From Photorhabdus heterorhabditis (lineage in GTDB: Bacteria; Pseudomonadota; Gammaproteobacteria; Enterobacterales; Enterobacteriaceae): a stretch of DNA of 64,000 nt. Below the pieces are notes generated by a model. It was not told the DNA's origin. It did no database searches and was given only the letters and a program-made list of their open reading frames with translations. The stretch lies in NCBI RefSeq assembly GCF_018448905.1, contig NZ_RCWA01000018.1, positions 1 through 64,000 of the forward strand, read 5' to 3'. Of the stretch, positions 11,172-25,185 are shown one piece after another; the first letter of the stretch is position 1, and every line of letters starts with the position of its first letter. The translations under genes and the position numbers were made by a program.

Positions 11172-13253
11172 CTATCCGTTACCACCAATCGTCGCTGTCA
11201 TACGAATTTGACGGTTATCACTGATTTCAAGATTAGATAAAACCACTAATTGAGGTAAAGTCCTTCGCAAGAAACGCGATAACAGTGGACGTAATGCATG
11301 ATTAACCAACAGTACCGGAGGCGCACCTAGCATTTCCTGACGTTGCAAGGCTTCAGTCGCCTGCTGTTGCAACTTATCCGCCAATCCAGGCTCCAGACCG
11401 CCACCATTTTGTAACGCCTGAATTAACAAGCGCTCAAGGCCCACGTCTAATCCAATGACCTGAATTTCCTGCGCTCCTGGGAACCACTGTTGAGCTATCG
11501 CCCGACCAAGCGCAATTCTGACTACAGAAGTCAACTCATAAGGATCAGTTTGTCCCGGGGCATGTTCAGCCAGAGTTTCAATAATTGTCCGCATATCGCG
11601 GATCGGCACTTGCTCAGACAAGAGATTTTGTAAAACTTTATGTAAGGTTGTCAGACTGACAATATCGGGAATAAAGTCCTCAGTGAGTTTTGGCATCTCC
11701 TGACTGACTCGCTCAAACAACTGCTGGGCTTCCTGACGACCAAACAATTCATTGGCATATTGAGTCAATAGATGATTCATATGGGTAGCAACAACCGTAC
11801 TGGCAGCCACCACGGTGTAACCCTGAACCTGAGCCTGTTCTCTGAGACTGTCATCAATCCAAACCGCAGACAGCCCAAAAGCCGGATCTTTAGTGATATC
11901 GCCTTGCAATTCACCTACTGCACCACCGGGGTTTATTGCCAGCCAACGCCCCGGATGCGCTTCGCCTCGACCAATTTCTACCCCTTTCATTAAAATGCGA
12001 TAGCCCGCTGGCGCCAGTTCAAGGTTATCCCGGATATGAACTACGGGGGGTAAATATCCCATCTCCTGAGCGAATTTCTTACGAATTCCGCTGATTCTCC
12101 CCAGTAATTCCCCATTCTGGCGAAAATCAACCATCGGAATCAGACGATAGCCCACTTCCATACCCAAAGGATCTTCAAGCTGAACATCGGACCATGAAGC
12201 TTCAGATGTCTGTTGCTGCTCTTCTGCTTTTGGTTTTTCTATATTTATCGTCGGGCTGTCCGCACGGCGATATAAATACCAACCAATACCTGCCAACGCC
12301 GCAGTAAATAACAGGAAAACAAAATTTGGCATCCCCGGAACCATACCCAGTAATCCGAGAACACCGGCACTCAACATCATCACCCGCGGGTTATTGAACA
12401 GCTGAGTTATCATCTGCTGACCAACATCCTGATCGGTTGCCACACGGGTAACAATCACACCAGCAGCGGTCGAAATAATTAAGGCGGGTAACTGTGCAAC
12501 TAAGCCATCACCAATGGTTAACAAGGTATAAGCTTCTCCCGCATCAGCCATACTCATGCCGTGTTGGGCCACACCAACAATTAAGCCACCAACGACGTTG
12601 ATAACCAGAATCATTAAGCCGGCAATCGCATCACCGCGCACAAATTTACTGGCACCATCCATAGAGCCATAAAAATCAGATTCCTGTGTTACCTCAGCAC
12701 GGCGTTTCTTCGCTTCTTCCTCACCGATCAATCCGGCATTCAGATCAGCATCAATCGCCATCTGTTTACCTGGCATACCATCCAACACAAAACGCGCGCC
12801 AACCTCAGCAATACGCCCCGCACCTTTGGTAATCACCATGAAGTTAATCAATACCAAGATGACAAATACCACGATACCGATAGCGAAATTACCGCCAACC
12901 AGAAAGTGACCGAATGCCTCTACAACGCGCCCCGCAGCCGCAGAGCCGGTATGCCCTTCCAATAAAATGATACGCGTTGAAGCCACATTAAGAGACAAAC
13001 GCAGTAAAGTTGAAAACAACAATATTGTCGGAAACGCGGCAAAATCCAGAGTACGCCGGGTAAACATAGCCACCAGCAACACCATGATTGACAGGGCTAT
13101 GTTAAAAGTAAACAACAAATCAAGCATGAATGGTGGCAACGGCAATACCATCATTGACAAGATCATGAGGATCAATACCGGCCCGGCAAGAATTTGCCAT
13201 TGCGAGCCTTTCATATTGCCCGGTAAACGAAATATAGAGGCCAGATTAGCCAT
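11172..13253 (-). CDS. flhA: FlhA, flagellar export apparatus core protein
   Basis: Inner-membrane component of the flagellar type III export gate, with about eight N-terminal membrane segments and a large cytoplasmic domain that docks chaperone-substrate complexes. The protein from MANLASIFRLPG (start 13253) is 693 residues, matching enteric FlhA in length and almost continuously in sequence: the PGKQMAIDADLNAGLI loop in the membrane-proximal region, and the ending SDNRQIRMTATIGGNG. The chosen start gives an 8-base ATGGCTAA overlap with the flhB stop, the usual flhBA coupling; an upstream in-frame start would add seven unsupported residues. No flhE follows. Confidence 0.98.
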   Translation of the reverse strand: MANLASIFRLPGNMKGSQWQILAGPVLILMILSMMVLPLPPFMLDLLFTFNIALSIMVLLVAMFTRRTLDFAAFPTILLFSTLLRLSLNVASTRIILLEGHTGSAAAGRVVEAFGHFLVGGNFAIGIVVFVILVLINFMVITKGAGRIAEVGARFVLDGMPGKQMAIDADLNAGLIGEEEAKKRRAEVTQESDFYGSMDGASKFVRGDAIAGLMILVINVVGGLIVGVAQHGMSMADAGEAYTLLTIGDGLVAQLPALIISTAAGVIVTRVATDQDVGQQMITQLFNNPRVMMLSAGVLGLLGMVPGMPNFVFLLFTAALAGIGWYLYRRADSPTINIEKPKAEEQQQTSEASWSDVQLEDPLGMEVGYRLIPMVDFRQNGELLGRISGIRKKFAQEMGYLPPVVHIRDNLELAPAGYRILMKGVEIGRGEAHPGRWLAINPGGAVGELQGDITKDPAFGLSAVWIDDSLREQAQVQGYTVVAASTVVATHMNHLLTQYANELFGRQEAQQLFERVSQEMPKLTEDFIPDIVSLTTLHKVLQNLLSEQVPIRDMRTIIETLAEHAPGQTDPYELTSVVRIALGRAIAQQWFPGAQEIQVIGLDVGLERLLIQALQNGGGLEPGLADKLQQQATEALQRQEMLGAPPVLLVNHALRPLLSRFLRRTLPQLVVLSNLEISDNRQIRMTATIGGNG

Positions 13254-14397
13254 GACGATTATTTTCTCCAGCAAAATCCAGTGCTGGCGGCACTGGCAGA
13301 TTTTCAGGTTTCTTCGGCTTCAAGCCGCCTTCCCGTTTCCAACGTTTCAATTGGTAGACCCAGGCAAGAACTTCCGCCACTGCCGCGTAAAGTGTTGCGG
13401 GAATATGTCCCCCTACTTCACTATGACGATAAAGCGCCCTGGCAAGTGGCGGCGCTTCAAGGAGTGGAATGCGGTTTTCTGTACCCATTTCTTTAATACG
13501 TAATGCAATTATTCCTGCGCCCTTCGCCAATACTTTTGGCGCACTCATCTGTTTTTCGTCATATTGCAGCGCGACAGCGTAGTGAGTTGGGTTAGTGACG
13601 ATAACATCCGCTTTCGGAACATCCGCCATCATACGTTGACGAGCAGCCGCCCGTTGTTGTTGACGGATACGCGCCTTAACGTGTGGGTCCCCTTCTTGCT
13701 CTTTAAATTCATCCTTTATTTCCTGACGAGTCATTCTCAGCTTTTTCAAATGGCTGTATATCTGGTAAACAACATCGAAAGCCACCATCGGTATTAACAT
13801 GAAGACGACCACATAACCGGCAAACACCAGCATTTGCATAGCATCATCCAGCGCCAATAACGGTGGTTGCGCGATTAACCGCAACATGGAAGGCCAGTTC
13901 ATCCAAAGAAATAAAGCAGCACCAATACCGACAAACCCAGCTTTAAGCAGCGCCTTGAATAATTCAGCTAACGCATTCATTGAGAAAATACGTTTCAGAC
14001 CTGAAATCGGATTCAATTTTTTCGGATCAAATTTGATGGATTTGGTACTGAACACTAACCCACCCAATAGCGCCGGGGCACTTAATGCCACTAACACTAA
14101 TCCGGCAAAAACCGGCAATAAAGCCCAAACAGCTTGCCGAAGCAATCTGCCAATCTGCTGAACCATCTGTTTATCATTGCTGACCATGCTGTGGTCGAAA
14201 TTAAAACCTTCAAACACCATCAACGACAATTCATGCGCAATTGACTGACCGCTTAACCAGAGCAAACTCAGGCCACTAGTCAGCATCAATATAGAACTCA
14301 GCTCTCTGGAACGCGCAATCTGCCCCTCTTTCCGGGCTTTTTCCCGTTTATGGGGCGTGGGTTCTTCTGTCTTCTCAAGATCGCTATCTTCAGCCAC
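13246..14397 (-). CDS. flhB: FlhB, flagellar export switch protein
   Basis: Membrane protein that, with FlhA, forms the export gate and switches substrate specificity from rod/hook to filament after autocleavage. It has 383 residues with four membrane segments in the first half and the autocleavage motif NPTH (in VIVTNPTHYAVAL) near residue 270. The start codon is GTG at 14397, preceded by AGGA at six bases. It is the first gene of flhBA. In other enterics cheZ lies just upstream; here a ~9.7 kb accessory segment intervenes, so flhBA probably needs its own FlhDC-dependent promoter. I could not place that promoter. Confidence 0.97.
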   Translation of the reverse strand: MAEDSDLEKTEEPTPHKREKARKEGQIARSRELSSILMLTSGLSLLWLSGQSIAHELSLMVFEGFNFDHSMVSNDKQMVQQIGRLLRQAVWALLPVFAGLVLVALSAPALLGGLVFSTKSIKFDPKKLNPISGLKRIFSMNALAELFKALLKAGFVGIGAALFLWMNWPSMLRLIAQPPLLALDDAMQMLVFAGYVVVFMLIPMVAFDVVYQIYSHLKKLRMTRQEIKDEFKEQEGDPHVKARIRQQQRAAARQRMMADVPKADVIVTNPTHYAVALQYDEKQMSAPKVLAKGAGIIALRIKEMGTENRIPLLEAPPLARALYRHSEVGGHIPATLYAAVAEVLAWVYQLKRWKREGGLKPKKPENLPVPPALDFAGENNRHG

Positions 14398-14631
14398 GGC
14401 TTTCCTTGTTAACTTTCAAAACGCGGTCGGTCAGAAAATATGGAATCAAATGGCTGCTAGCATGACAAAAGAGAAAAAATTCGATGGCTGGAACAATGAG
14501 AAATTTGACGGGGTATTTGTAGGATCAAGTTCGATATCTGAGGCAATTCAGCAAAGACAAATGAAGTTCCCTGCAACATTTTCTATGGAAATTTACTGTT
14601 TCTTAACCAAATATTAATCAGAGGTGAAGAG

Positions 14632-14993
14632 ATGGCAATAGGATATTATCTGCTCATCGGTGGTAGGGTGACCTGTGTAAACACCCCGGTACTCATATGA
14701 TTGTCGCTGATGTCTCAGATATGTTTAACATGGGACGCACACTGGATAGTGTGAGTACCTGCCCTTGTCGGGCCAGATTTATTAACTCGGTTAATGAAGG
14801 CGAAGAGGATTATTTAAATTGGTATCATCTTAGCGAGATTGCTGAGCGATTTGATAAAGCCCCGACTCGAGTGCGTTTTCGCTGGATCAGAGATGAAGGA
14901 GGTTGCTGCTACTATTATTCCAGCAGAGATACACCAAAAAATCAGTGCCACATATGGGGGCCGAAACACTCCCACTCAAATAGAACAAGTTAG
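14632..14993 (+). pseudogene. PAAR-like protein, apparently frameshifted
   Basis: A short frame starting MAIGYYLLIGGRVTC at 14632, behind a GAGGTGAAGA SD, stops at 14700. The ATG at 14697 overlaps that stop and continues in the -1 frame with GRTLDSVSTCPCRARF and a 98-residue tail. The two pieces together resemble the start and the next conserved block of PAAR-type spike-tip proteins (MAIGYY-GD-TTC, then GDTLDS-S-CPC). I read it as one gene with a single-base frameshift. An alternative is a translationally coupled pair. There are no type VI genes nearby. The family assignment is tentative. Confidence 0.45.
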
Positions 14994-15019
14994 AACGAGT
15001 TAAGTCAACCGCATTTTTA

Positions 15020-15089
15020 CCCACCTCAGAAGTACGTTGGTAACTAATATAAAGAGAGGATTTTTTTGAGAGCCAATTCATTAATCCAC
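15020..15089. repeat. 70-bp dispersed direct repeat, copy A
   Basis: Starts CCCACCTCAGAAGTACGTTG and ends CATTAATCCAC. It is about three-quarters identical to 16620-16689 in the same orientation. The two copies bracket the DUF6392-like fragment, the cupin gene and two palindromic elements. Origin unknown; it could be the end of an old insertion. Confidence 0.6.
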
Positions 15090-15149
15090 AGTTTACAAAC
15101 CTAAACTGAAAATGAATTTTCTTAATTGAAAAAATAGGTTATATAAATA

Positions 15150-15338
15150 ATGCCGATTAACATTGAAACGTTAGTTAATAGTTTAGGTAAATCTTATCAA
15201 GAAATTTTTGATAACGGCTTAATTCCTTATAAAACGAAGCCAATAGGATACCCAAGAAATCCTGATATCACTTTAGATATGATTATTATCTCTAATATAT
15301 TTCTCCATTTTATTTCCAGTAAATCTAATGTTTCATAG
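15150..15338 (+). pseudogene. Truncated DUF6392-like (immunity-like) fragment
   Basis: 62 codons beginning [20 protein letters not shown] and containing [11 protein letters not shown] and PDITLDMI, a pattern I associate with the N-terminus of DUF6392-type proteins often found beside bacteriocin-like toxins. The normal family continues well beyond this point; here the frame degenerates and stops, and the SD is poor. Probably a remnant. The family call is from memory and uncertain. Confidence 0.35.
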
Positions 15339-15434
15339 GCTAGTACCTGATCCCCTTCATGAGATGCTCATATTATATTAATCGAAAAAATCTCATATCA
15401 TCCTTTTATCACCCCAATAACTTATCCTGATTTA

Positions 15435-15572
15435 TACCCGTTATCTTTCAAGTTGCCTCTTTGTTGGCTGCACTCGCTCACCCCGGTCACAGAATTATCT
15501 ATGACATAGTTACCTATGCTCCCGGGGATTCACTCCCTTGCCGTCGCGATCCATCTTGAAATCCATAGGGTA
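15435..15572 (+). repeat. TA-flanked palindromic element (MITE-like), copy 1
   Basis: 138 bp with ends TACCCGTTATCTTTCAAG and CATCTTGAAATCCATAGGGTA, flanked by TA on both sides. The interior has TTTGTTGGCTGCACTCGCTC and CTCCCGGGGATTCACTCCC. It has no coding capacity. It belongs to the seven-copy family seen throughout this window. Confidence 0.85.
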
Positions 15573-15646
15573 TATAATTATCTTCATGAATATCATAGCA
15601 TTCTCATAACCCATCAAGCACTAGCACATATTTAATTTATCCCAAG

Positions 15647-16069
15647 TTAAACCTTTAATTCCTCTGGGGTTCCCTCTCTATATGGCACCAGCGTCGTCCT
15701 ATTTTGTGAATCAACCGCACAATGATTATTACCAACAACAACCATGACCAAATCGCTGGTTGCCTTAATCGCGTGATCTATTTCTCCATTCACAAAATAA
15801 CAAACTCCAGGTTCTATTTCATGCTTTTCACCAGCATAAATAACATAACCCGTTCCTGCGAGTACAAATAAGATATGATGCCCTACGTGAGTATGATTCT
15901 TCATCCCTTCATCTTTGCTGAAACGAATTAGATCAGCACCAAAGCCATCAAACGAAACTAATCCCTCGCCCGTTCCCATACTGTTAACCATTTTATGACT
16001 TCTAGCCATTGTATCTACAACGAGATGCTCACCATTCCAGTGACAAAATCTATTTTTAATAAATTCCAT
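15647..16069 (-). CDS. Small single-domain cupin protein
   Basis: 140 residues from an ATG with GGAAGG four bases upstream. The core NHTHVGHHILFVLAGTGYVIY, then GEKHEIEPG and VNGEIDHAI, is a cupin barrel with the metal-binding His pattern of motif 1 (HTH, later Glu replaced by hydrophobics) and His of motif 2. The tail is TTLVPYREGTPEELKV. It is a lone gene in a decayed region, opposite to the fragments beside it and in the same direction as bkdABC, 1 kb downstream. The substrate cannot be inferred; cupins include enzymes, sugar-binding proteins and polyketide cyclase-like proteins. Confidence 0.75.
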   Translation of the reverse strand: MEFIKNRFCHWNGEHLVVDTMARSHKMVNSMGTGEGLVSFDGFGADLIRFSKDEGMKNHTHVGHHILFVLAGTGYVIYAGEKHEIEPGVCYFVNGEIDHAIKATSDLVMVVVGNNHCAVDSQNRTTLVPYREGTPEELKV

Positions 16070-16665
16070 ATTACCTTCCTTTTATCTCTACAAATAAAAT
16101 TTTATTTTAAAGTAACTATCCCTCTATCAAATAAAATAATATTTCCCAGTAAAACTTTAATCTTCAAAAAATTATCTTGATAAAGAAATTAACTGGTTCT
16201 TAACAACATATCAAATAGAAATATGTAATTCTATAGTAGTATTTTACAAAAACTCACTTTGTGATAACAATCACTGTAAAATACTTATTTTAAATATCTT
16301 TGTGGAAGATAACTTCAGTTTAAAATAATATCTGGCAAAATTTAGGCTAATTACATTATTAAGCCATGACAATAATGGCGTTAATTAAGTTGACATTAAT
16401 TCTCACTAAAAATAACCATTTCAAAAATATATACCCAATAGATTTCAAGTTGCAGAGCAGCGGTAAGTGAACGCATCCCCAGAAGCATAGATAACGATGT
16501 GGCTGGGGTAAGTGAACACAGCCAACAAAGCAGCAGCTTGAAAGATAAAAGGTATATCATATGATATGACTAAAGAAGGAGTGTATTTGGCATTTAAAAG
16601 AGAGAATAAGATTTTATTTCCCACCTCAGAAGTGCGTTAGTAGTCAATAAAAGAGATCGTTTCTC
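16070..16665. other. AT-rich intergenic region
   Basis: No gene seen. It contains the reverse-oriented palindromic element at 16432-16554 and the start of the second 70-bp repeat. Confidence 0.5.
16432..16554 (-). repeat. TA-flanked palindromic element, copy 2 (reverse orientation)
   Basis: 123 bp with left end TACCCAATAGATTTCAAGTT and right end CTTGAAAGATAAAAGGTA, flanked by TA. It is the reverse complement of the arrangement in the other copies and more diverged at the right end. Confidence 0.8.
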
Positions 16666-16689
16666 TTGAGACCCAATTTATTAATCAAC
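16620..16689. repeat. 70-bp dispersed direct repeat, copy B
   Basis: Starts CCCACCTCAGAAGTGCGTTA and ends ATTTATTAATCAAC; direct repeat of 15020-15089. It runs straight into the truncated antitoxin-like fragment. Confidence 0.6.
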
Positions 16690-16941
16690 AAAACGATTTG
16701 GCAAATCATCAGGTTGTTACCTTTCCACAAGACAGGTCGTCACCGTCAGATTCTATTTGCTGATCTGATGGCCTATAAGCAAAAACGTGATCAGGAAAGC
16801 CTTAAAGCAATGCAGGCATTAGCCTATCAGGCACAAGAATTAGAACTGACTGATGAAACATTCACCCCCCTAGAGATGCTGCTTAAGCAAGGCTTACCCA
16901 TGACTGCAAAGGCGTTGGAAGGATACACGTTCGTCTTTTAA
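16666..16941 (+). pseudogene. Truncated excisionase/antitoxin-type DNA-binding protein
   Basis: The central part, LPFHKTGRHRQILFADLMAY followed by KQKRDQESLKAMQALAYQAQEL, matches the C-terminal half of small excisionase-like antitoxin proteins, where a helix-turn-helix precedes P-F-H-GRHRRI-FADLMAYK. The N-terminal HTH is missing and the frame instead begins inside the 70-bp repeat, and the C-terminus departs from the family. There is no toxin gene beside it. Most likely a broken gene. Confidence 0.5.
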
Positions 16942-17070
16942 TCACGTTGACATAAATAAGACTTTCTTATTAATTCTCCCATAAAGCTTGGTGTATCAGT
17001 AACCAACTGAGAGGATTTCTCCAGGAACTACCAGGTACTGGATTTAAAAAATATTTATCACCAAACCGAA

Positions 17071-17096
17071 AATTCCCTGTTGTACAACAGGGAATT
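17071..17096 (-). terminator. Terminator of the bkdABC operon
   Basis: A perfect 26-base palindrome (AATTCCCTGTTGT and its complement) lies 23 bases beyond the bkdC stop and is followed on the minus strand by TTTTCGG. Strong stem, short T-tract. Confidence 0.7.
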
Positions 17097-17119
17097 TGTG
17101 TGGAAAAAACCGGCACCGA

Positions 17120-18970
17120 TTACGGTTTTGCAATCACAGACTCATGGTTAGGTAACCAGTAACGCCGATGTTCAAAAGCATATTTAGGCAATCTAATGCG
17201 TAACGGTTTCTGCCCAGAAGGCCAGCAGGTACGCCAATCTATATCCCGACCCTGTAACCATAAAAATCGAGAATCGTCTTCCGCCATATGGAGCCATTGT
17301 TCTTCATTGGCTGAAACAGATGAAACAAAATCACGTAACTGGCTCAGGAGATCTTGTCTTGATGTCGCAACAAACAATGCCCGATGAGGTAAAGCTGCCC
17401 TACCAAATTGCAATGTCCAGCTCACCGCTTGTAAATCGATATTTGCCTCGTTTTCAATAAAATCTCCCAGCATGACAACCATTTTTTGTAATGATGCCGG
17501 GCTATTAGCAGCAATAGGATAGTAATATTTCTCCGAACTGGCTTTAACCGATTGCTGTGTTTTAGTCGGAGCTTCCTCCAAAATAACATGAGCATTACTT
17601 CCACCCAATCCAAAGGAACTTAACCCAGCAAAACGTTTTTGCCCTACCCCCACCTGCCAGGAATGTACTTCCGTAGCCAATTGTAAGCGCGTATCCGTGT
17701 TATCAATTTCAGGATTCAAATGCTGAAACGCTGCACTAGGTACAATAGATTTATGCTGCAACATCAATAAGACTTTAACGATGCCAGCTAATCCCGCCGC
17801 TCCCTCTAAATGTCCTATATTGGCTTTTACTGAACCAATATAACAAGGCTGCCGGGTTTTTCCTGATTTATCATGGTTAAAGACTTCGTTAAGCGCGTTA
17901 AATTCTATAGGATCACCCAGCGAAGTCCCCGTTCCATGGGCTTCCATGTAACTAATTTGCTCCGCAGAGACTCCAGCCTGTTGCAAACAATCATTGACTA
18001 ATGCGATTTGCTGCTCAGGGTTAGGTGAAGTCAGTGAGTTGGCTCGCCCACCATGATTTATCGACGATGCCCGAACATAGCCATAAATCGGGTCCCGATC
18101 CTCTAATGCCTGTTTGTGCGTTTTCAGAAATAGGCACACAGCCCCTTCACCACGGACAAAACCATTAGCATCTGCATCAAAAACCCGACAACATCCATCT
18201 TTAGATAACATTCCCGCTCGATAATAAGCAGCCATGTTAAATGTGTTGCTCAATAGATTAATACTGCCAACTACCGCCTGTTGACATTCTCCAGAACGCA
18301 ATGAATTTACAGCTTGAGTCAATGCAGTTAACCCGCTTGAACACGCGGTATCAATTTGTAAACTCGGGCCAACGAAGTTGTAATAAAATGACAATCTGTT
18401 TGCCAGAAGGCAATTCAGTGTTCCCGTCGTGACATAAGCATTTGCCATCGTCATATCAGCCGCAGCGAGTTCACGATAGTCATTACTGCACGAACCAATA
18501 AAAACACCCGTTTTTGATCCTGAGTAGTCAAGCGGATTAGCCCCGCTATCTTCAATTGCCTGCCAGGTCAGCTCCAATAGCATTCTCTGTTGCGGGTCCA
18601 TCATAGCCGCTACCCGCGGAAAAATACCAAAGAATGGCGCATCAAAGCCATCAATACTATCAAGTAACCCTGCTTTCAATGCTTTTTGGGGCACCGGAAC
18701 AGCGTAAGGTTTCCCAGATGCAAGCCGTTCCTCGGGAATCTCTTTTATCACACTGCGACCAGATTTTAAGATCTCCCACATTTGTTCAGGAGAATCTTCT
18801 GCTCCAGGGAGCCGGAAAGCCATGCCTACAATAGCAATAGGCATCTGCTTCGTATCACCCGCATCACTTATTGATGGAGCAATGGCGTTCAGATGTTCCA
18901 ACAAGACAGATTTAGCCATCTGTTGTTCATCTGGACTGAGTGAATGATATATGTGATACAGATTATCCAT
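17120..18970 (-). CDS. bkdC: BkdC: stand-alone beta-ketoacyl synthase
   Basis: 616-residue ketosynthase of modular-PKS type. In Photorhabdus the gene in this position is known to condense the branched acyl unit with malonyl carrier protein to give the beta-ketoacyl precursor of isopropylstilbene. The catalytic triad is intact: Cys210 in DTACSSGL, His345 in EAHGTGTSLGDP, His387 in NIGHLEGAAG. A short N-terminal segment (residues 1-40) resembles a docking helix. After the KS core come a KS-to-AT-like linker and the post-AT-like motif LPKYAFEHRRYWL, yet no AT, KR or ACP domain, so the protein looks cut out of a modular PKS. ATGGATAA overlap with bkdB indicates coupling. Its ACP is probably the one on BkdB. 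Confidence 0.9.
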   Translation of the reverse strand: MDNLYHIYHSLSPDEQQMAKSVLLEHLNAIAPSISDAGDTKQMPIAIVGMAFRLPGAEDSPEQMWEILKSGRSVIKEIPEERLASGKPYAVPVPQKALKAGLLDSIDGFDAPFFGIFPRVAAMMDPQQRMLLELTWQAIEDSGANPLDYSGSKTGVFIGSCSNDYRELAAADMTMANAYVTTGTLNCLLANRLSFYYNFVGPSLQIDTACSSGLTALTQAVNSLRSGECQQAVVGSINLLSNTFNMAAYYRAGMLSKDGCCRVFDADANGFVRGEGAVCLFLKTHKQALEDRDPIYGYVRASSINHGGRANSLTSPNPEQQIALVNDCLQQAGVSAEQISYMEAHGTGTSLGDPIEFNALNEVFNHDKSGKTRQPCYIGSVKANIGHLEGAAGLAGIVKVLLMLQHKSIVPSAAFQHLNPEIDNTDTRLQLATEVHSWQVGVGQKRFAGLSSFGLGGSNAHVILEEAPTKTQQSVKASSEKYYYPIAANSPASLQKMVVMLGDFIENEANIDLQAVSWTLQFGRAALPHRALFVATSRQDLLSQLRDFVSSVSANEEQWLHMAEDDSRFLWLQGRDIDWRTCWPSGQKPLRIRLPKYAFEHRRYWLPNHESVIAKP

Positions 18971-20492
18971 GCTGCTTCCCTCCTTCTATGAGGTTCTGCA
19001 ACCTTAATGCAGCTTCACCATCAAGGTCACGCACTGCATTAGTAAAGTCATCTAAGGAATGCTTTTTCTTCTCCGTCATTTCAGTGCTGGAAATGTCAAG
19101 ATACTCAATTAATCGATGCGGCGAACTATAGCGCCAGAACAGGGTTGGAGATAATTTTCGACGAAAATCCCGTGACATCAGTTCCGCAAGTTTTACCGCT
19201 TTAAGCGAATCAATACCCAAATCAGCCCAGGTACGTTGCATCATTGATTCAGTAAAATCTTCATCCCAATTTAGAAAATCAGCCAAAAGTGTGCGTAACT
19301 GACCAGAGACCGATTTGACGGATTTACCTGCCATTTGATGGGCTACCGATTGTGATCCAGTCAGAGCACGAACCTGAGTAATAACCTCTGTAATAAATGC
19401 AGACGCCTCTACCCCATTAAGCAAATAGTGATTAAATGCCAGAACCAAGCTCATTTCTTTGTTATGAGGCGCACCGATGAACAATGTTGACTGAGATGGC
19501 GGCACAATAACAGGTACAGCAAAGGTAGCACCATCGTTGCCGGTATATGAAATCATCATAGGAACATCAATATCAACGGGCAGTTTTTCAGCATCTGGAT
19601 CAAGGACACTATTTAGATGCTGTCTAAACTCGAAAAAGCCCATTGTCTGCGTTCCCGGTACTTTTAACGAACTCAAATCACCTTTTTCGTTCAGAAAAGC
19701 AATACCCAGGTTGATATCCGCATAAGTGTGATAACGTTCTTGATCAAGCGGTCTTGAGCGCAACATCGGGAATTTTTTCAGTGCCTGAGCAACTGCATAA
19801 GTGATTACCTGAAATGGCGTTATCCACTCTTGTTGTCCAGAGGTTTCCGTCAAATGACGAACGGCACTATCAACAAGCTCCATCGGTAATGGTTTAGCTG
19901 CCCAACAAGGCTGTACAGTCGCACTATTTAACCGTATTGCACGATTAAGGCGCTGCTGATCTCTTGACAGAAAACCCACATTGCCATTTTCTACCTTGCC
20001 CTTTTCTGACGGTTTGGCTTCACGGTGCTGTTGAAGATAATCATCAATATGGACGGGTAATAATGTCCCATGTTTTTCCGCCAGTTGGCTAAGAATTTGT
20101 GGCTCAATGTGATGTTCTTGTGCGTATTGACGGGTTTTAGGCGGAATACGCGCTGGAGGAGCTGATACCTCAGCTTCAGGAGCCACCACCACTGTCTCCA
20201 CGTTCTCCAGCTGAGGCGCTAACTCTTCACTGACAGGGGAAGGCTCCGCCAATTCGCCGGCGACTCTAATGACTGCAATAGCCGATCCAACGGGGATAAT
20301 ATCATTTTCCGCCGCTAACCATTTTTCCAGTATCCCCTCAACATCAGATTCAATGGTAAAAGCAGCCTTATCCGTCTCCATTTCATAAACAGGTTCATCA
20401 CGCTTGACATAATCTCCCACCTGCTTAAGTAACTGGATGACGACAACTTCCGTGGTTCCTTCTCCCATCGGAGGAATAAACAACTGTGCCAT
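18963..20492 (-). CDS. bkdB: BkdB: lipoyl acyltransferase (E2) fused to an acyl carrier protein
   Basis: 509 residues. Domains in order: lipoyl domain 1-80 with the lipoylated Lys42 in METDKAAF; a Pro/Glu/Val linker; a probable peripheral-subunit-binding segment near 115-155; an acyltransferase core about 175-400; then an acyl carrier domain with Ser429 in DLGIDSLKAVKL, and a charged C-terminal tail. The usual E2 active-site motif DHR-x-DG reads NHYLLNG: His kept, Asp changed to Asn. The architecture suggests that a branched acyl group made by BkdA moves from lipoyl to the attached carrier arm and on to BkdC. It starts 9 bases after bkdA and overlaps bkdC. The fusion is seen directly; the acyl route is inferred. 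Confidence 0.9.
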   Translation of the reverse strand: MAQLFIPPMGEGTTEVVVIQLLKQVGDYVKRDEPVYEMETDKAAFTIESDVEGILEKWLAAENDIIPVGSAIAVIRVAGELAEPSPVSEELAPQLENVETVVVAPEAEVSAPPARIPPKTRQYAQEHHIEPQILSQLAEKHGTLLPVHIDDYLQQHREAKPSEKGKVENGNVGFLSRDQQRLNRAIRLNSATVQPCWAAKPLPMELVDSAVRHLTETSGQQEWITPFQVITYAVAQALKKFPMLRSRPLDQERYHTYADINLGIAFLNEKGDLSSLKVPGTQTMGFFEFRQHLNSVLDPDAEKLPVDIDVPMMISYTGNDGATFAVPVIVPPSQSTLFIGAPHNKEMSLVLAFNHYLLNGVEASAFITEVITQVRALTGSQSVAHQMAGKSVKSVSGQLRTLLADFLNWDEDFTESMMQRTWADLGIDSLKAVKLAELMSRDFRRKLSPTLFWRYSSPHRLIEYLDISSTEMTEKKKHSLDDFTNAVRDLDGEAALRLQNLIEGGKQHG

Positions 20493-20501
20493 AAATTCTC
20501 C

Positions 20502-22499
20502 TTAGCCCATTACCGCATAAACGGAAGCCAAAATGTCATCCGTGCTGGGTAAGACAGCTTTTTCTAAACAAGGATTAAAAGGAATATGAATATCTTCACG
20601 CGTCACCAAGCGCGGAGGTGCCAGCAAAGAGAAGAAATTGTCATTCTCATCCAAAATATCAGCAATAATGGATGCTCCAACACTGGCCGTCCGGGTATCC
20701 TCCTGCACAACGATAAGCCGCCCGGTTTTGCGCAAAGATGCGGCAATCCGTTGTTTATCCCAAGGTACCAGACTACGTAACTCAATCACTTCAATGTCAA
20801 TATTGTTTTTTTCCGCCTGAAGAGCAGCCATCGTCGCAAGCTGAACAGTATTTCCCCAAGCAACCAGTGTAATATGCTTACCAGCCCTGACAATATTTGC
20901 CTGCCCAAGCGACACTGGAGTCACCAACCGGCGCTCATGACGCTCTCTCATCAGGTGTTTAGGGATCAAGATCAGACTCGGCATATCCAGACTTAATGCG
21001 GTACGGAATAACGCGACTGTATCAGCGGGTGTTGTTGGAACAAGCACATTAATACCGGGAATATGCGCTAAGATACCGTCCGAGCTTTGGCTGTGCCATA
21101 TACCACCTCCAGGGAGATAAGCACCATAAGGAGCATATATCACTACCGGACAGCGCCATTTTCCCACGGTTCTCCAACTTAAAGTGCCAAGTTGTGACTG
21201 TAACTGATTGAGTCCTAGCCCAACAAAGTCGATAAATTGCAGTTCAACAATCGGACGCCAACCACAGGCGGACAATCCAACAGACGAGCCAATAATCGTG
21301 GCTTCAGAAAGGGGAGCATTAAAAACGCGATCAGGATAACGGGTGGATAAGCCGCGGGTGAAACCAAAAACCCCCCCTTTAGGATCTTCAATATCCTCAC
21401 CAAATAACAGCACATTTGGATGCTGGCTCAACGCCTCGTCCAAGACCTGATTCACCGCTTTAAACTGTGTCTCTTCGGCTTCCATTTCAATATGTACAAC
21501 AGGAGCGCTTTCACGATTACACAAATAGGTACTGACACTTGCAGGATCAGGCTCTGCCTCGTGATAAACACGCTCAAATATCTCCACGACATCAGCTTTA
21601 ATGCGCTCTTTTTGTTCAGTCAGGACCTGTTCAGTAATCGCCCCTTTTTCCTTTAAATAGGCAACATAATTTTCAATAGGGTCCTGTAATGCTTCCAGCT
21701 CATCTTGGGTACGGTACAGTTTGTGAGAATCTGAGTTGGAGTGAGAATCTAACCGGTCCACTCGACAAACCAAGATGCAAGGTGTTCGCTCAAATCTCGC
21801 CTTATTGAATACCTCCTGTGCAACAGGAAATACGGTTTCCGGCCTGCGGGCATCAACACGGCGAATCAAACACTCGTCAAATATTCCCAATCGATACGGA
21901 GCCATCTTCTCCGTTGAGGTACTAATACCCAATTTATTATCAGAAACCACAAAGACGACGGGCAAACGCCTTTCAACCGCAAAGCTAACCGCTTCATAAA
22001 ATTCTCCCTGCCGGGTTGCCGCATCACCGACACCACACACGACAAGTCCATTTTTATTATCCAACGCGCTTGCCCAGGCAGCGCCAGCCGCAGGAATACA
22101 TTGGGTTCCCGTCAAACTGACTACCGAGAAAATATTATGCTCTTTGGAGCAAAAATGATTCGACATGGTCCGGCCAGCTGAGTGAGAAGTGGCCTTTCCC
22201 ATCAGTTCCCTTGTCATTTCAACAATAGACATACCACGCGCTAATACTAATGCCCGATCACGATAGTAAGGAACCAGCACATCATTCTTTTCCATAAGCT
22301 GTGGCAACACTGCCAGTCCTTCATGTCCAGCAGCCGACACATGAAACCAAGCTCTGCCCTGTCGGGTAACTAACGCACTACGATTATCAAATTCCCGTGA
22401 CAGCAGCATGTCATAAAGTAACTTTTGCTCATCTAAACAATTATCCATTGAAGGGCTGTGTTCCTTAAGAGGTACTTCATTGATCTGTACGTCTATCAC
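20502..22499 (-). CDS. bkdA: BkdA: branched-chain 2-oxoacid dehydrogenase E1, alpha and beta fused
   Basis: Thiamine-diphosphate decarboxylase of a Bkd-type complex; both E1 subunits lie in one chain. The alpha half (about 15-320) has VPYYRDRALVLARG, HFCSKEHNIFS and the TPP/Mg motif GDAATRQGEF...SDN. The beta half (about 345-665) has LFGEDIEDPKGGVFGFT and VFNAPLSEATIIG. I prefer GTG at 22499, which has GAGGA seven bases upstream; a GTG five codons earlier (22514) has no SD. It is the first gene of bkdABC. There is no E3 gene in the cluster, so dihydrolipoamide dehydrogenase is presumably borrowed. In Photorhabdus this gene supplies the isovaleryl-type starter for stilbene and branched lipids. 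Confidence 0.88.
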   Translation of the reverse strand: MIDVQINEVPLKEHSPSMDNCLDEQKLLYDMLLSREFDNRSALVTRQGRAWFHVSAAGHEGLAVLPQLMEKNDVLVPYYRDRALVLARGMSIVEMTRELMGKATSHSAGRTMSNHFCSKEHNIFSVVSLTGTQCIPAAGAAWASALDNKNGLVVCGVGDAATRQGEFYEAVSFAVERRLPVVFVVSDNKLGISTSTEKMAPYRLGIFDECLIRRVDARRPETVFPVAQEVFNKARFERTPCILVCRVDRLDSHSNSDSHKLYRTQDELEALQDPIENYVAYLKEKGAITEQVLTEQKERIKADVVEIFERVYHEAEPDPASVSTYLCNRESAPVVHIEMEAEETQFKAVNQVLDEALSQHPNVLLFGEDIEDPKGGVFGFTRGLSTRYPDRVFNAPLSEATIIGSSVGLSACGWRPIVELQFIDFVGLGLNQLQSQLGTLSWRTVGKWRCPVVIYAPYGAYLPGGGIWHSQSSDGILAHIPGINVLVPTTPADTVALFRTALSLDMPSLILIPKHLMRERHERRLVTPVSLGQANIVRAGKHITLVAWGNTVQLATMAALQAEKNNIDIEVIELRSLVPWDKQRIAASLRKTGRLIVVQEDTRTASVGASIIADILDENDNFFSLLAPPRLVTREDIHIPFNPCLEKAVLPSTDDILASVYAVMG

Positions 22500-22514
22500 T
22501 CTCTTTTTCCTCAC

Positions 22515-24107
22515 AAATAGTTAACGTGGTAATTGTCGTTATTGCGCTTAGTGCCTGATAAAAAAGCGAATACGGGATAGTCCCATTCATGATTACCTGA
22601 GAGACTATAGATCCCGATAAAGAAGTGAAAGCGGGGTAATACCTTCACACAGATTACAAAAGATAGAAGTATACGGTCACGATTTTTAATAACATTTACA
22701 TATCTGGAATGGTAGGCAAAATTCTCTCCATGACCATGAATAGCTCTGACTGTCACGATATTCCCCGAATTTTGAGCATTGTCCTGATCACAATGTGATA
22801 CCATTTAAAAAGCTCCAACCGATGAACAATAGCCATTTGCTAAGGACAAAACCAATAAACATCGGCATTTCCATGATTACGATACGATTAAAAAACAGGT
22901 TTTTGCCTATACTTTTGAATCCTGCAATGATAAGACGCTGGAATAATTTCTCACTCTGTTAAGCGATTTTAAAGTTATACTTCCGCAACAGATTCTTCAT
23001 TAGGTATTTTTACATTTAACTGAGAAATAGACCTAAAATAGCATTACATCAATCAAGCTTAAATTCAATGATTTTATACTTATTACAAATCTTTATATTT
23101 TGTGATAAACCTCAATAATAACCCCACTTATTGCCAAATACATCCCATTAAATTCATGAATCCATATAGCACCAACACTGATACTTTACAAAAAATTAAT
23201 TTATTATCTCTTATGTTTTATCATAAAAAAACTAATCGTAATGAGTGAATGATCACAAAAGCGCTGATATATTTAACTACCTGATTCTACTAAATTTACA
23301 AGTCTAATATCGTTGATATTATAGTGCAGTTAATAGCATATCTACATATAAAAATATATTGCTTAACCATTTGAATATTTTATCAATTACTTATAGTAGT
23401 AAACTAAAAAAATAATAATAGAAAATATAATTTCAGCAAGGTTGATCTGAATGAATTTATCCCTATGTTGTGTGCAAATTATTTCTATAAATAATAACAT
23501 CAAATACATCTGTCCTTTTAGCCCTCTCGATACTATTAATCCTCTTCATACTATGGAAAAACGATTAATTCATGCAATTATTTTAATTTTAATTACTACT
23601 TCTTATTTTAAATAACAACGGCTTTGACAGCTCCCTTGTTTAACATTGATAAACAACTCTACCACTTTCGCACCATGCCAATTATTCCTATCGATCTCGC
23701 AAACACACAGTGATGGGTACCTACCCCACTGTTACTTATTTTTCTGCCGAATTTGAGCATTTGATCACAATAGCCTGACCGTTTTATTCCGGGTCCAATC
23801 AGACCCGATTTTGATCTATGCTGAGTACCAGAGTAGCATGAAAGATTGAATCCACATTTCCTTCTGAGGATGGCAAAAACTGATGGATATTTACAAAATC
23901 AACAATTCATTTATACATATTATCGCTACTCTCTTGTTTTACTAGTCTGGCTGCCAGGCAGAAGTGAAACGGCGGCCATAAATTGTTTCACCTTTAGCAA
24001 CAATTGCCAAAAGATAACCCCAACCGTTCTATTTTATCCCATCAGGGAGAATAAGATTAATGTCGCTCAATACCACCAATCATATTTCCGAAAAATTTTT
24101 AATTCTG
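22515..24107. other. Gene-free AT-rich region between bkdA and cheZ
   Basis: About 1.6 kb upstream of bkdA with no convincing gene; frames at 22511-22804 and 23846-24121 lack SD and recognisable sequence. A GC-rich hairpin CGGGTC-6-GACCCG followed by ATTTT lies at 23790-23811. Two stretches, near 22755-22790 (minus) and 23750-23785 (plus), share GAATTT-GAGCATT and GATCACAAT, suggesting an old duplicated element. The bkd promoter must be here. Confidence 0.5.
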
Positions 24108-24130
24108 AGTGGCAGGCTTAGCCCGCCACT
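24108..24130 (-). terminator. Terminator after cheZ
   Basis: Stem AGTGGC-GGC/GCC-GCCACT with a TTA loop and one mismatch, starting 6 bases beyond the cheZ stop. T-rich sequence occurs on both strands (TTTTATT on plus, AATTAAAAATTTTT on minus). It marks the end of the che operon and the boundary to the bkd segment. Confidence 0.6.
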
Positions 24131-24135
24131 TTTAT

Positions 24136-24786
24136 TCAGAAACCTAAGCTATCCAGTAGATCATCAACCTGAGCCTGATTAGCAATAACACCCACGCCAT
24201 TTTGATTCACTTGCGGGCCATTTAGCAAACTATCAGTCTCTTTCTTGGTTTTCACCATCTGATCAGCCGGCATGTTTTCCATCAATACCATCACCAGCTG
24301 TTTTTCTATTTCCTGAATAACATCCATCATCCGCTTGATAACCTGACCAGTAAGATCTTGAAAATCTTGTGCCATCATGATCTCCATCAGTTGAGCGTTA
24401 GTAAAAGCAGTATGATCAGGTACTGTATTGAGGTAATTTCGGGTATCCACAACCAATGAGCGCGCCACAGGCATTTCAACTGGATTTGCAAACCATTCAT
24501 CCCAGCGTTTTGTCAGTGATATTGCCGATGATTCCAACTCATTCTGACGAGGTTGCGCCGCCTCAACACAATTCAGCGCTCTTTCGGCTGCCTGCGCAGT
24601 CATCTGAACAACATAGTCCAGGCGTTCTCTCGCATCAGGTATCGCCTCAGCCGCCTGAGCGATAGTTTGATCCAACCCTAGCTCACGTAAACTATCACGC
24701 AACATCCGCGTAAGTTGGCCGATACGGCTGATAATCTCACTGGCAGTAATGGTCTCATCCCTCGGCATGACTGGATTTACACTCAT
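24136..24786 (-). CDS. cheZ: CheZ, CheY-P phosphatase
   Basis: 216-residue cytoplasmic phosphatase that dephosphorylates CheY-P. The catalytic Gln lies in [14 protein letters not shown] (near 145), in the long helical hairpin, and the C-terminal CheY-binding helix is [13 protein letters not shown]. The length matches enteric CheZ. It is the last gene of tsr-tap-cheRBYZ, 9 bases after cheY. In E. coli flhB comes next; here the bkd segment does. Confidence 0.97.
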
Positions 24787-24795
24787 TATGTCTCC

Positions 24796-25185
24796 TTAGA
24801 GGCCCAATTTTTCGAAAATTTTATTAAGCTTCTCTTCCAGAGTGGCAGCTGTAAAAGGTTTAACAACATAACCACTAGCCCCGGCCTGCGCAGCTGCAAT
24901 AATGTTTTCTTTCTTCGCTTCTGCTGTCACCATCAAAACGGGTATTTTGGATAATTGTGCATCTTCACGAATGATTTTTAACAACTCCAGACCATCCATA
25001 TTAGGCATATTCCAGTCAGAGATAATGAAATCAAATTGGGATGAACGAATCTTAGTCAGAGCTTCTGCTCCATCCTGAGCTTCTTCTACATTGTTGAAAC
25101 CCAGCTCTTTCAGCAGGTTACGAACAATGCGCCGCATGGTTGAAAAATCATCAACCACCAGAAATCTAAGATCCTTATTCGCCAT
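24796..25185 (-). CDS. cheY: CheY, chemotaxis response regulator
   Basis: 129-residue single receiver domain that carries the signal from CheA to the flagellar switch. Numbering equals E. coli: acidic pair Asp12/Asp13 in [10 protein letters not shown], phosphoacceptor Asp57 in [11 protein letters not shown], Thr87 in VTAEAKKEN, Lys109 in GYVVKPF. It lies 69 bases after cheB and 9 bases before cheZ. Confidence 0.98.

Follow-up and report, generated by a model that had tools for sequence, protein, structure and literature searches.

Comparative sequence analysis makes it likely that the bkdABC operon of Photorhabdus heterorhabditis encodes a detached starter unit, in which an isovaleryl group would be passed from a lipoyl arm to a fused acyl carrier protein (ACP) and from there to a ketosynthase (KS). 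Below, we document the gene order, the domains, the conserved catalytic residues and the kinship of the parts; as read from the sequences, branched acyl groups probably pass straight to the chain-building enzyme.

Photorhabdus BkdABC is reportedly treated in Brachmann 2012 and Joyce 2008. The carrier domain of BkdB, its need for the PPTase NgrA and the product, a 5-methyl-3-oxohexanoyl thioester, are already known from PMC4578411 and PMC4901931. It is also published that a bkdABC mutant is without iso-fatty acids and that bkdABC yields iso-fatty acids in E. coli. Our addition is that bkdABC resembles a detached starter module of streptogramin-type assembly lines. We found no description of a shared descent of bkdABC and the streptogramin starters in the literature searched; one may exist beyond it.

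Gene order and domains of the bkd locus

Based on the list of open reading frames (ORFs) and Pfam, the 64,000-nucleotide stretch of DNA analyzed here (the window) contains a bkd operon with the gene order bkdA-bkdB-bkdC and all genes on the minus strand. The genes and the parts of BkdB are as follows:

20502..22514, minus strand: bkdA, fused E1 alpha-beta thiamine-diphosphate decarboxylase, 670 aa (Pfam E1_dh 36-324, Transket_pyr 352-523, Transketolase_C 537-661)
18963..20492, minus strand: bkdB, lipoyl domain, helical linker domain, E2 core and ACP, 509 aa
17120..18970, minus strand: bkdC, stand-alone PKS-type KS, 616 aa (Pfam ketoacyl-synt, E 2.4e-77, plus C-terminal extensions)
20268..20483, minus strand: lipoyl domain of BkdB, residues 4-75, lipoyl Lys42 in ETDKA (PF00364, E 6.6e-13)
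20028..20150, minus strand: helical region of BkdB, residues 115-155, at the position of the peripheral subunit-binding domain in classical E2s
19356..19979, minus strand: E2 acyltransferase core of BkdB, residues 172-379, with Ser315, His355 and Asn359
19413..19433, minus strand: active-site motif NHYLLNG of BkdB, residues 354-360
19098..19301, minus strand: ACP domain of BkdB, residues 398-465, phosphopantetheine Ser429 in GIDSLKAV (PF00550, E 3.1e-8, 34.2 bits against a cut-off of 20.8)
18966..19097, minus strand: C-terminal tail of BkdB, residues 466-509, helical in the model

bkdA and bkdB are spaced by 9 bases, bkdB and bkdC overlap by 8 bases, and GGAGGG precedes the ATG of bkdC. Pfam identifies BkdA as the E1 decarboxylase partner of BkdB, and BkdC has the Cys-His-His triad in DTACSS, EAHGTGT and NIGHLE. 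No extension modules follow bkdC in the listed stretch of the window. The operon has no dedicated E3 gene, and the flhB-cheZ interval holds no ORF of >140 aa besides bkdABC in the ORF list. Elsewhere in the genome, one lipoamide dehydrogenase scored over the cut-off; the genome also has one FabH over the cut-off and, as PPTase candidates, a 255-aa PPTase-family ORF and an AcpS-size ORF.

The first-pass annotation described BkdB as a lipoyl domain, an E2 core and a C-terminal ACP, and this description was confirmed by Pfam (PF00364 and PF00550) and a fold search. Both computational analyses that it proposed agree with a carrier domain: the Pfam search gave the PF00550 match listed above, and the predicted structure has helices across the ACP region 395-477 (395-406, 415-418, 429-442, 451-454 and 458-477). 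Lys42 is invariant in the family alignment (29/29 rows), and PP-binding was recognized at E<=1 in 16 of these 29 rows, which is the number of rows reaching past the core. Pfam E3_binding (PF02817) was recognized in none of the 29 rows at E<=1 vs all three classical controls, and a three-helix region is found in its place (118-126, 131-141 and 146-155 in the BkdB model). Among the fold-search matches listed for BkdB, E2 cores fill the list, with chloramphenicol acetyltransferases at the foot of one list; ACP folds do not appear among these matches, which says nothing about the ACP because the core takes up the list. The fold search and alignment together identify an acyltransferase fold with the catalytic His and Asn kept. 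As judged from the alignment, the fusion of E2 and ACP is real and conserved in relatives. In the structural model, the tail at residues 466-509 is a possible docking element to BkdC. We note that this tail is unseen in the actinobacterial alignment rows, which are themselves cut shortly after the ACP.

Kinship with actinobacterial starters and the proposed acyl route

In all three actinobacterial proteins scanned using Pfam (E<=1e-5), lipoyl, E2, PP-binding and KS domains follow each other in one uninterrupted chain, with neither a loading acyltransferase nor a ligase detected between them at this threshold. A fused E1 gene directly precedes the actinobacterial lipoyl-E2-ACP-KS chains, and for such uninterrupted chains, direct loading of the carrier would be the simplest reading. 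BkdA is 50-52% identical to the E1 adjoining E2-ACP-KS in five Streptomyces records, while BkdB is 29-33% identical to its streptogramin-A-type counterparts. BkdC scored 405-497 bits against KSs following E2-ACP vs 264-316 bits against KSs located further along these lines, and at most 410 bits against single solved KSs. For the streptogramin-A-type line, the key to Fig. 1 of PMC10006238 has BCDH and ACP among its items, and SnaE1 appears in PMC6963833.

In the KS tree, which holds only KSs from these loci, BkdC grouped with the KSs after E2-ACP (20 rows vs 19; support 99/96.7; the L080 KS was retained and counted as a KS after E2-ACP). The E1 tree grouped Photorhabdus with the actinobacterial unit with a support of 96/99.9, and a second row set, from which L082 was dropped, gave 90/87.9, not starred. 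The E2 tree calculated without the ACP, with ten further rows dropped as long-branch rows or near copies, gave the same grouping (94/88, not starred), and the alternative tree placing Photorhabdus with ACP-less E2s was not rejected (p 0.113). Long-branch warnings were issued in five tree runs, including the KS tree, the E2 tree without the ACP and the second E1 set; in the KS and E2 trees, they concerned branches toward the Photorhabdus rows. The E1 and E2 trees were calculated without L080 (interrupted reading frame in its contig), L069, L076, L081, L084, L085 and the near copy L058, and L083 fell out of the trees with the motif or length lacking. Photorhabdus was represented by 3 of 12 named loci plus the window, and the classical E2s by 13 of the 17 loci of L014-L030. 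Because the 51 family loci stem from a single genome-contig scan with two peptide patterns, the family is undersampled. Within this sampling, common descent of BkdC with the first KS of streptogramin-A-type lines is well supported by sequence, and the KS, E1 and E2 trees all appear to group Photorhabdus with the actinobacterial unit, the E1 tree with good support in one of two row sets.

Based on these comparisons, we suggest that BkdA decarboxylates 4-methyl-2-oxopentanoate, the presumed substrate in this strain, and loads the resulting acyl group onto the lipoyl arm of BkdB. Using His355, Asn359 and Ser315, the E2 core would then move isovaleryl onto the phosphopantetheine of Ser429 in the fused ACP, with this direct transfer as the putative main route. 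BkdC would accept isovaleryl from the ACP and condense it with carrier-bound malonyl, and the resulting 5-methyl-3-oxohexanoyl thioester would feed iso-fatty acids, isopropylstilbene and photopyrones. The lipoyl arm would be re-oxidized by a general lipoamide dehydrogenase encoded elsewhere in the genome.

Two other readings bring in free CoA. One E2 may load both the fused ACP and CoA, which overlaps with a starter unit rather than excluding it; PMC5986005 reports for E2o an equilibrium constant near unity for succinyl exchange between CoA and the lipoyl domain, and PMC3838401 names isovaleryl-CoA as the Bkd product. We found no direct counter-evidence and give such dual use a modest chance. 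It is unlikely, in our estimate, that BkdB is a conventional E2 that releases free isovaleryl-CoA, with the fused ACP doing no more for BkdC than carrying malonyl (the extender) or the product. The core fold and catalytic residues do match those of CoA-using E2s, ACP-less relatives exist that presumably use CoA, and papers name isovaleryl-CoA for Bkd and isobutyryl-CoA for streptogramin A; however, the kinship with single-chain lipoyl-E2-ACP-KS starters, in which the ACP lies ahead of the KS as a loading carrier, argues against it.

The active-site motif of the E2 core

The altered E2 motif pointed out in the first-pass annotation, NHYLLNG, is present, but it is a weak sign of special chemistry because the motif retains its His, has an Asn that is family-wide and lacks an Arg that is near-dispensable in E2o. 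His355 and Asn359 are invariant in all 29 alignment rows, and an equivalent of Asn359 is found in 43/43 family members whose motif could be read, 20 of which lack an ACP. Azotobacter vinelandii E2p has a native Asn at the same position, named as Asn614 in a PDB title. The occurrence of this Asn in ACP-less relatives and in A. vinelandii E2p rules out that it marks a loss of activity. The first-position Asp-to-Asn change was found only in Photorhabdus; in E. coli E2o, this substitution leaves 9.7% activity, i.e., slowed and not abolished (PMC5986005). By these comparisons, NHYLLNG does not mark a dead enzyme. It is highly improbable that the E2 core has a purely structural role, with the lipoyl arm serving the ACP or KS without E2 catalysis, as the altered motif and the existence of E1-lipoyl-KASIII fusions without E2 or ACP might suggest, given the invariance of His355 and Asn359 and the conservation of Ser315 in 19/19 ACP-fused rows.

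The motif Arg is missing in 19/19 ACP-fused E2s and kept in 19/19 free E2s among the rows examined; the rows for this comparison, for Ser315 and for one tree were picked using a pattern requiring His and accepting either Asp or Asn at the final polar position, which for 13 of 14 classical rows demanded DHR too. A second Arg-to-Ala difference between ACP-fused and free E2s lies at residue 185, with no tie to CoA contacts found. We rejected the argument that a missing motif Arg proves specificity for the ACP, since E. coli E2o with Ala at this position has 56% activity and an unaltered Km for CoA (PMC5986005), by which this Arg is nearly dispensable in that enzyme. Because of this unchanged Km, the analyzed residues do not prove that CoA is not the acceptor.

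Comparison with known systems

BkdABC of Photorhabdus luminescens/laumondii is identical in kind in operon, gene order and the ACP-bearing BkdB; bkd identity across the genus is 84-94%, and we saw no difference from the present genome beyond species divergence. The classical E2p, E2o and E2b share with BkdB the lipoyl domain, the core fold and the catalytic His, whereas BkdB differs in the added ACP, the unrecognized E3-binding domain, the motif NHYLLNG and an operon without an E3 gene. Armatimonadota, Hydrogenedentota and other groups have pairs of E1 alpha-beta and E2 that belong to the same E1 and E2 families as bkd (22 loci among L051-L076); these pairs have HxxxNG where readable but, unlike BkdB, retain the Arg of DHR. 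None of the 20 pairs with a complete ORF has an ACP, the other 2 ending at a contig end, and no BkdC-like KS lies beside these pairs in the DNA examined.

Two gammaproteobacterial proteins fuse E1, a lipoyl domain and a FabH-type synthase (KASIII), without E2 or ACP. This E1-lipoyl-KASIII protein was not found in the three other genomes of its order, and no description of the fusion was found in the literature searched, beyond which one may exist. We tentatively propose, as a possibility somewhat short of an even chance, that a CoA-free route from 2-oxoacids to chain building exists in three or more variants built on one E1 family: the split bkdABC of Photorhabdus; the actinobacterial single-chain lipoyl-E2-ACP-KS, with streptogramin A starting from E2-made isobutyryl-ACP and not isobutyryl-CoA; and E1-lipoyl-KASIII, whose lipoyl arm would hand acyl groups to the FabH-type synthase. 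Should the transfer prove direct, oxidative decarboxylation would supply an assembly line without drawing on the CoA pool, the depiction of the streptogramin A starter would change, and branched starters could be loaded by a unit that is compact and portable. Through the kinship of bkdABC and the streptogramin starters, the published assumption of an isobutyryl-CoA starter can be put to a direct test using a small protein like BkdB.

The streptogramin-A-type starts share with bkdABC the fused E1, the lipoyl-E2-ACP-KS order and the catalytic residues, and their KS is the closest to BkdC among the KSs compared. They differ in that the Photorhabdus KS is a separate protein without following extension modules and, according to the literature, in the acyl group, which is isovaleryl in Photorhabdus vs isobutyryl in streptogramin-A-type lines. 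Because BkdC is a separate 616-aa protein and no further modules are found in the listed stretch of the window, bkdABC is not counted as a member of these starters; it probably works like a streptogramin-A-type starter and is related to it.

The bkdABC locus and the relatives of BkdB

The first-pass annotation described BkdB as an E2 acyltransferase that carries an ACP and is encoded beside a ketosynthase (KS). This arrangement is real and conserved: full-length BkdB was found in all 12 other Photorhabdus genomes searched (84-94% identity), and in the 46 further genomes from the family or order, matches were only partial and weak (best E 2.3e-11). The locus is organized as follows.

13246-25185: region in which the bkdABC operon lies, with flhB on one side and cheZ/cheY on the other
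20502-22514, minus strand: bkdA, fused E1 alpha-beta, 9 bases upstream of bkdB
18963-20492, minus strand: bkdB, lipoyl-E2 core-ACP
17120-18970, minus strand: bkdC, PKS-type KS with an intact Cys-His-His triad, 8-base overlap with bkdB

Between flhB and cheZ, there is no E3 gene and, besides bkdABC, no listed ORF of >140 aa. Elsewhere, the genome encodes one lipoamide dehydrogenase above the family cut-off (among 14 matches in total), one FabH above the cut-off, two members of the aromatic ammonia-lyase family, taken together here, and a pair of PPTase-family ORFs (145 and 255 aa). Overall, bkdABC is conserved and functional-looking. We note that a small cupin protein is encoded downstream of bkdC (15647-16069, minus strand) and that 9 of 12 Photorhabdus loci have it on the same side of bkd (93.6-95% identical). 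The 12 named Photorhabdus loci, each with at most 8 kb of flanking DNA, gave FlhB-like matches in 9 cases and CheZ in 3; hence, either the spacing is variable or the flank stops short.

A single genome scan with a ten-sequence profile identified 51 loci, which sorted into 12 Photorhabdus loci, 11 actinobacterial E2-ACP-KS chains, 22 free-standing E2s, and 6 weak or classical matches. The actinobacterial chains include that of Streptomyces sp. SW4 despite its broken frame (L080:4716-14352); here, the E1 and E2-ACP frames are in pieces, which may be a sequencing error. The Pfam domain order was lipoyl, E2 core, PP-binding, and KS in all three actinobacterial chains scanned. PP-binding matched in 16 of the 29 family-alignment rows (E≤1), which is the number of rows that reach past the E2 core; in two of these (L070 and L077), the residue preceding the carrier Ser is not Asp. 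Five Streptomyces plasmid records have this E2 family close to the beginning of a giant PKS/NRPS gene, with a fused E1 adjoining. Annotation is available for three of the records; in two of them, the genes adjoin those for pabB, chorismate mutase, prephenate dehydrogenase, and ornithine cyclodeaminase, neighborhoods that we take to be streptogramin-type clusters. The third has the ornithine cyclodeaminase gene, and the other three are absent from the 41.5 kb viewed.

The free-standing E2s (among L051-L076) derive from Armatimonadota, Hydrogenedentota, Planctomycetota, alphaproteobacterial MAGs, and unplaced bacteria. None of the 20 complete ORFs has an ACP, while those of L069 and L076 end at a contig edge. 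Within the locus DNA examined, a related fused E1 was nearby at 10 of the 22 loci and a BkdC-like KS at none; a crude pattern for a separate ACP in ORFs of <160 aa flagged none near the E2 at the 19 loci inspected.

Descent of E1, E2-ACP, and KS

In trees computed with the ACP cut off, the Photorhabdus E2 joined the actinobacterial ACP-fused E2s (SH-aLRT 91; 94/88 in a second tree, not starred); the alternative topology, with Photorhabdus among ACP-less E2s, was not rejected (p 0.113). In the E1 tree, Photorhabdus grouped with the actinobacterial unit (96/99.9), and this support dropped to 90/87.9 (not starred) after three E1s were added and one outgroup row was dropped. BkdC grouped with the KS directly following E2-ACP (99/96.7); a quick KS tree was also made. 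The tree tool gave a long-branch warning for both E2 trees, both KS trees, and the enlarged E1 tree. In bit scores, BkdC matched the KSs after E2-ACP at 405-497 versus 264-316 for KSs further along these assembly lines. Among solved structures, the top score for a single KS was 410 bits; the higher total for 7zma sums two KSs, the better of which scored 332.5 bits. Taken together, trees and scores favor one inherited unit of E1, E2-ACP, and KS over separate assembly of look-alikes, and the KS is the firmest part of this case.

When 369 gammaproteobacterial and 398 pseudomonadotan genomes were searched with BkdA, three E1 relatives, own genome aside, reached an E value of at most 1e-100; they cluster together in the E1 tree (100/99).

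L102:2593-5940, minus strand: 1116 aa, E1 alpha-beta-lipoyl-FabH-type KASIII
L106:2788-6123, minus strand: 1112 aa, E1 alpha-beta-lipoyl-FabH-type KASIII
L103:6626-8968, plus strand: E1 alpha-beta-lipoyl only, without E2

The L102 and L106 proteins, from two different gammaproteobacterial families, share 47% identity along almost the entire sequence and have KASIII motifs but neither E2 core nor ACP, an architecture that suggests direct lipoyl-to-ketosynthase transfer. The L102 protein was not found in the three other genomes of its order. Downstream of the L103 gene are SET, WelO5-like halogenase (weak), alpha/beta hydrolase, and ATP-grasp family matches, possibly a small biosynthetic cluster.

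The changed E2 motif

NHYLLNG in BkdB departs from DHRxxDG, as noted in the first-pass annotation; however, its Asn also occurs in ACP-less relatives and in A. vinelandii E2p, and the acceptor is not shown by it. Specifically, the last polar position is Asn in 12/12 Photorhabdus, 11/11 actinobacterial, and 20/20 free-standing E2s with a readable motif (DHRxxNG in all 20; two are cut off) and Asp in all 14 classical E2s of the comparison set. Native A. vinelandii E2p reads DHRVING (1dpd chain), sharing this Asn with BkdB, whereas the 1dpc chain reads DHRVIDG; mutant and native were assigned from the PDB title, which gives the catalytic set Ser558, His610, and Asn614, equivalent to Ser315, His355, and Asn359 in BkdB. 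By alignment, the hallmark of the ACP-fused group is instead loss of the Arg after His, which is Tyr, Thr, Ser, or Cys in 19/19 ACP-fused rows and kept in 19/19 free-standing rows.

For E. coli E2o, PMC5986005 reports 56% activity for Arg376Ala, with a Km for CoA of 0.0198 versus 0.0204 mM, and residual activities of 9.7% (Asp374Asn), 9.5% (Asp379Ala), and 2.1% (His375Ala). Given these values and the kept catalytic residues, the motif is compatible with an acyltransferase that works, if possibly at a lower rate, but leaves the identity of the acceptor unrevealed. Pfam detected an E3-binding domain in 0/29 family rows and 3/3 classical controls; the BkdB model has three helices where this domain would stand.

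Published knowledge and a proposed acyl route

The main claim on BkdB is already published in outline. PMC4578411, citing its reference 18, places an ACP domain within BkdB whose activation required NgrA, states that iso-fatty acid formation upon expression in E. coli depended on BkdABC, and gives the product as a 5-methyl-3-oxohexanoyl thioester; in PMC4901931, BkdB is a holo-acyl carrier protein that NgrA generates. The core point of the first-pass annotation, an ACP-bearing E2 with a ketosynthase next to it, was thus already known for Photorhabdus. For the iso-fatty acids that bkdABC yields in E. coli, PMC3838401 refers to Brachmann 2012, which we infer to be reference 18 of PMC4578411. Branched fatty acids are tied to bkdABC (PMC3838401, PMC8248439), stilbene is linked to it via isovaleryl-CoA (PMC3838401), and the link is repeated in PMC5313471 and PMC9002308. 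For streptogramin A, the starter is named as isobutyryl-CoA in PMC6963833 and PMC9636800, and the Fig. 1 key of PMC10006238 has a BCDH element and ACP domains. In the literature searched, we found no description of kinship between bkdABC and the streptogramin starter unit. Our analysis adds the family-level picture and, following from it, a possible test of CoA independence.

In the best reading, the acyl group would pass within one unit from E1 via lipoyl and ACP to KS. Isovaleryl-CoA is a poor substrate for the FabH of E. coli, and the iso-fatty acids that bkdABC yields in this host would therefore imply a dedicated KS; BkdC would stand in for FabH with isovaleryl. The malonyl carrier could be AcpP or, after hand-over, the BkdB ACP itself. 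Where actinobacteria have one chain, the tails at the end of BkdB (helical in the model) and at the start of BkdC (putatively helical) may serve in docking.
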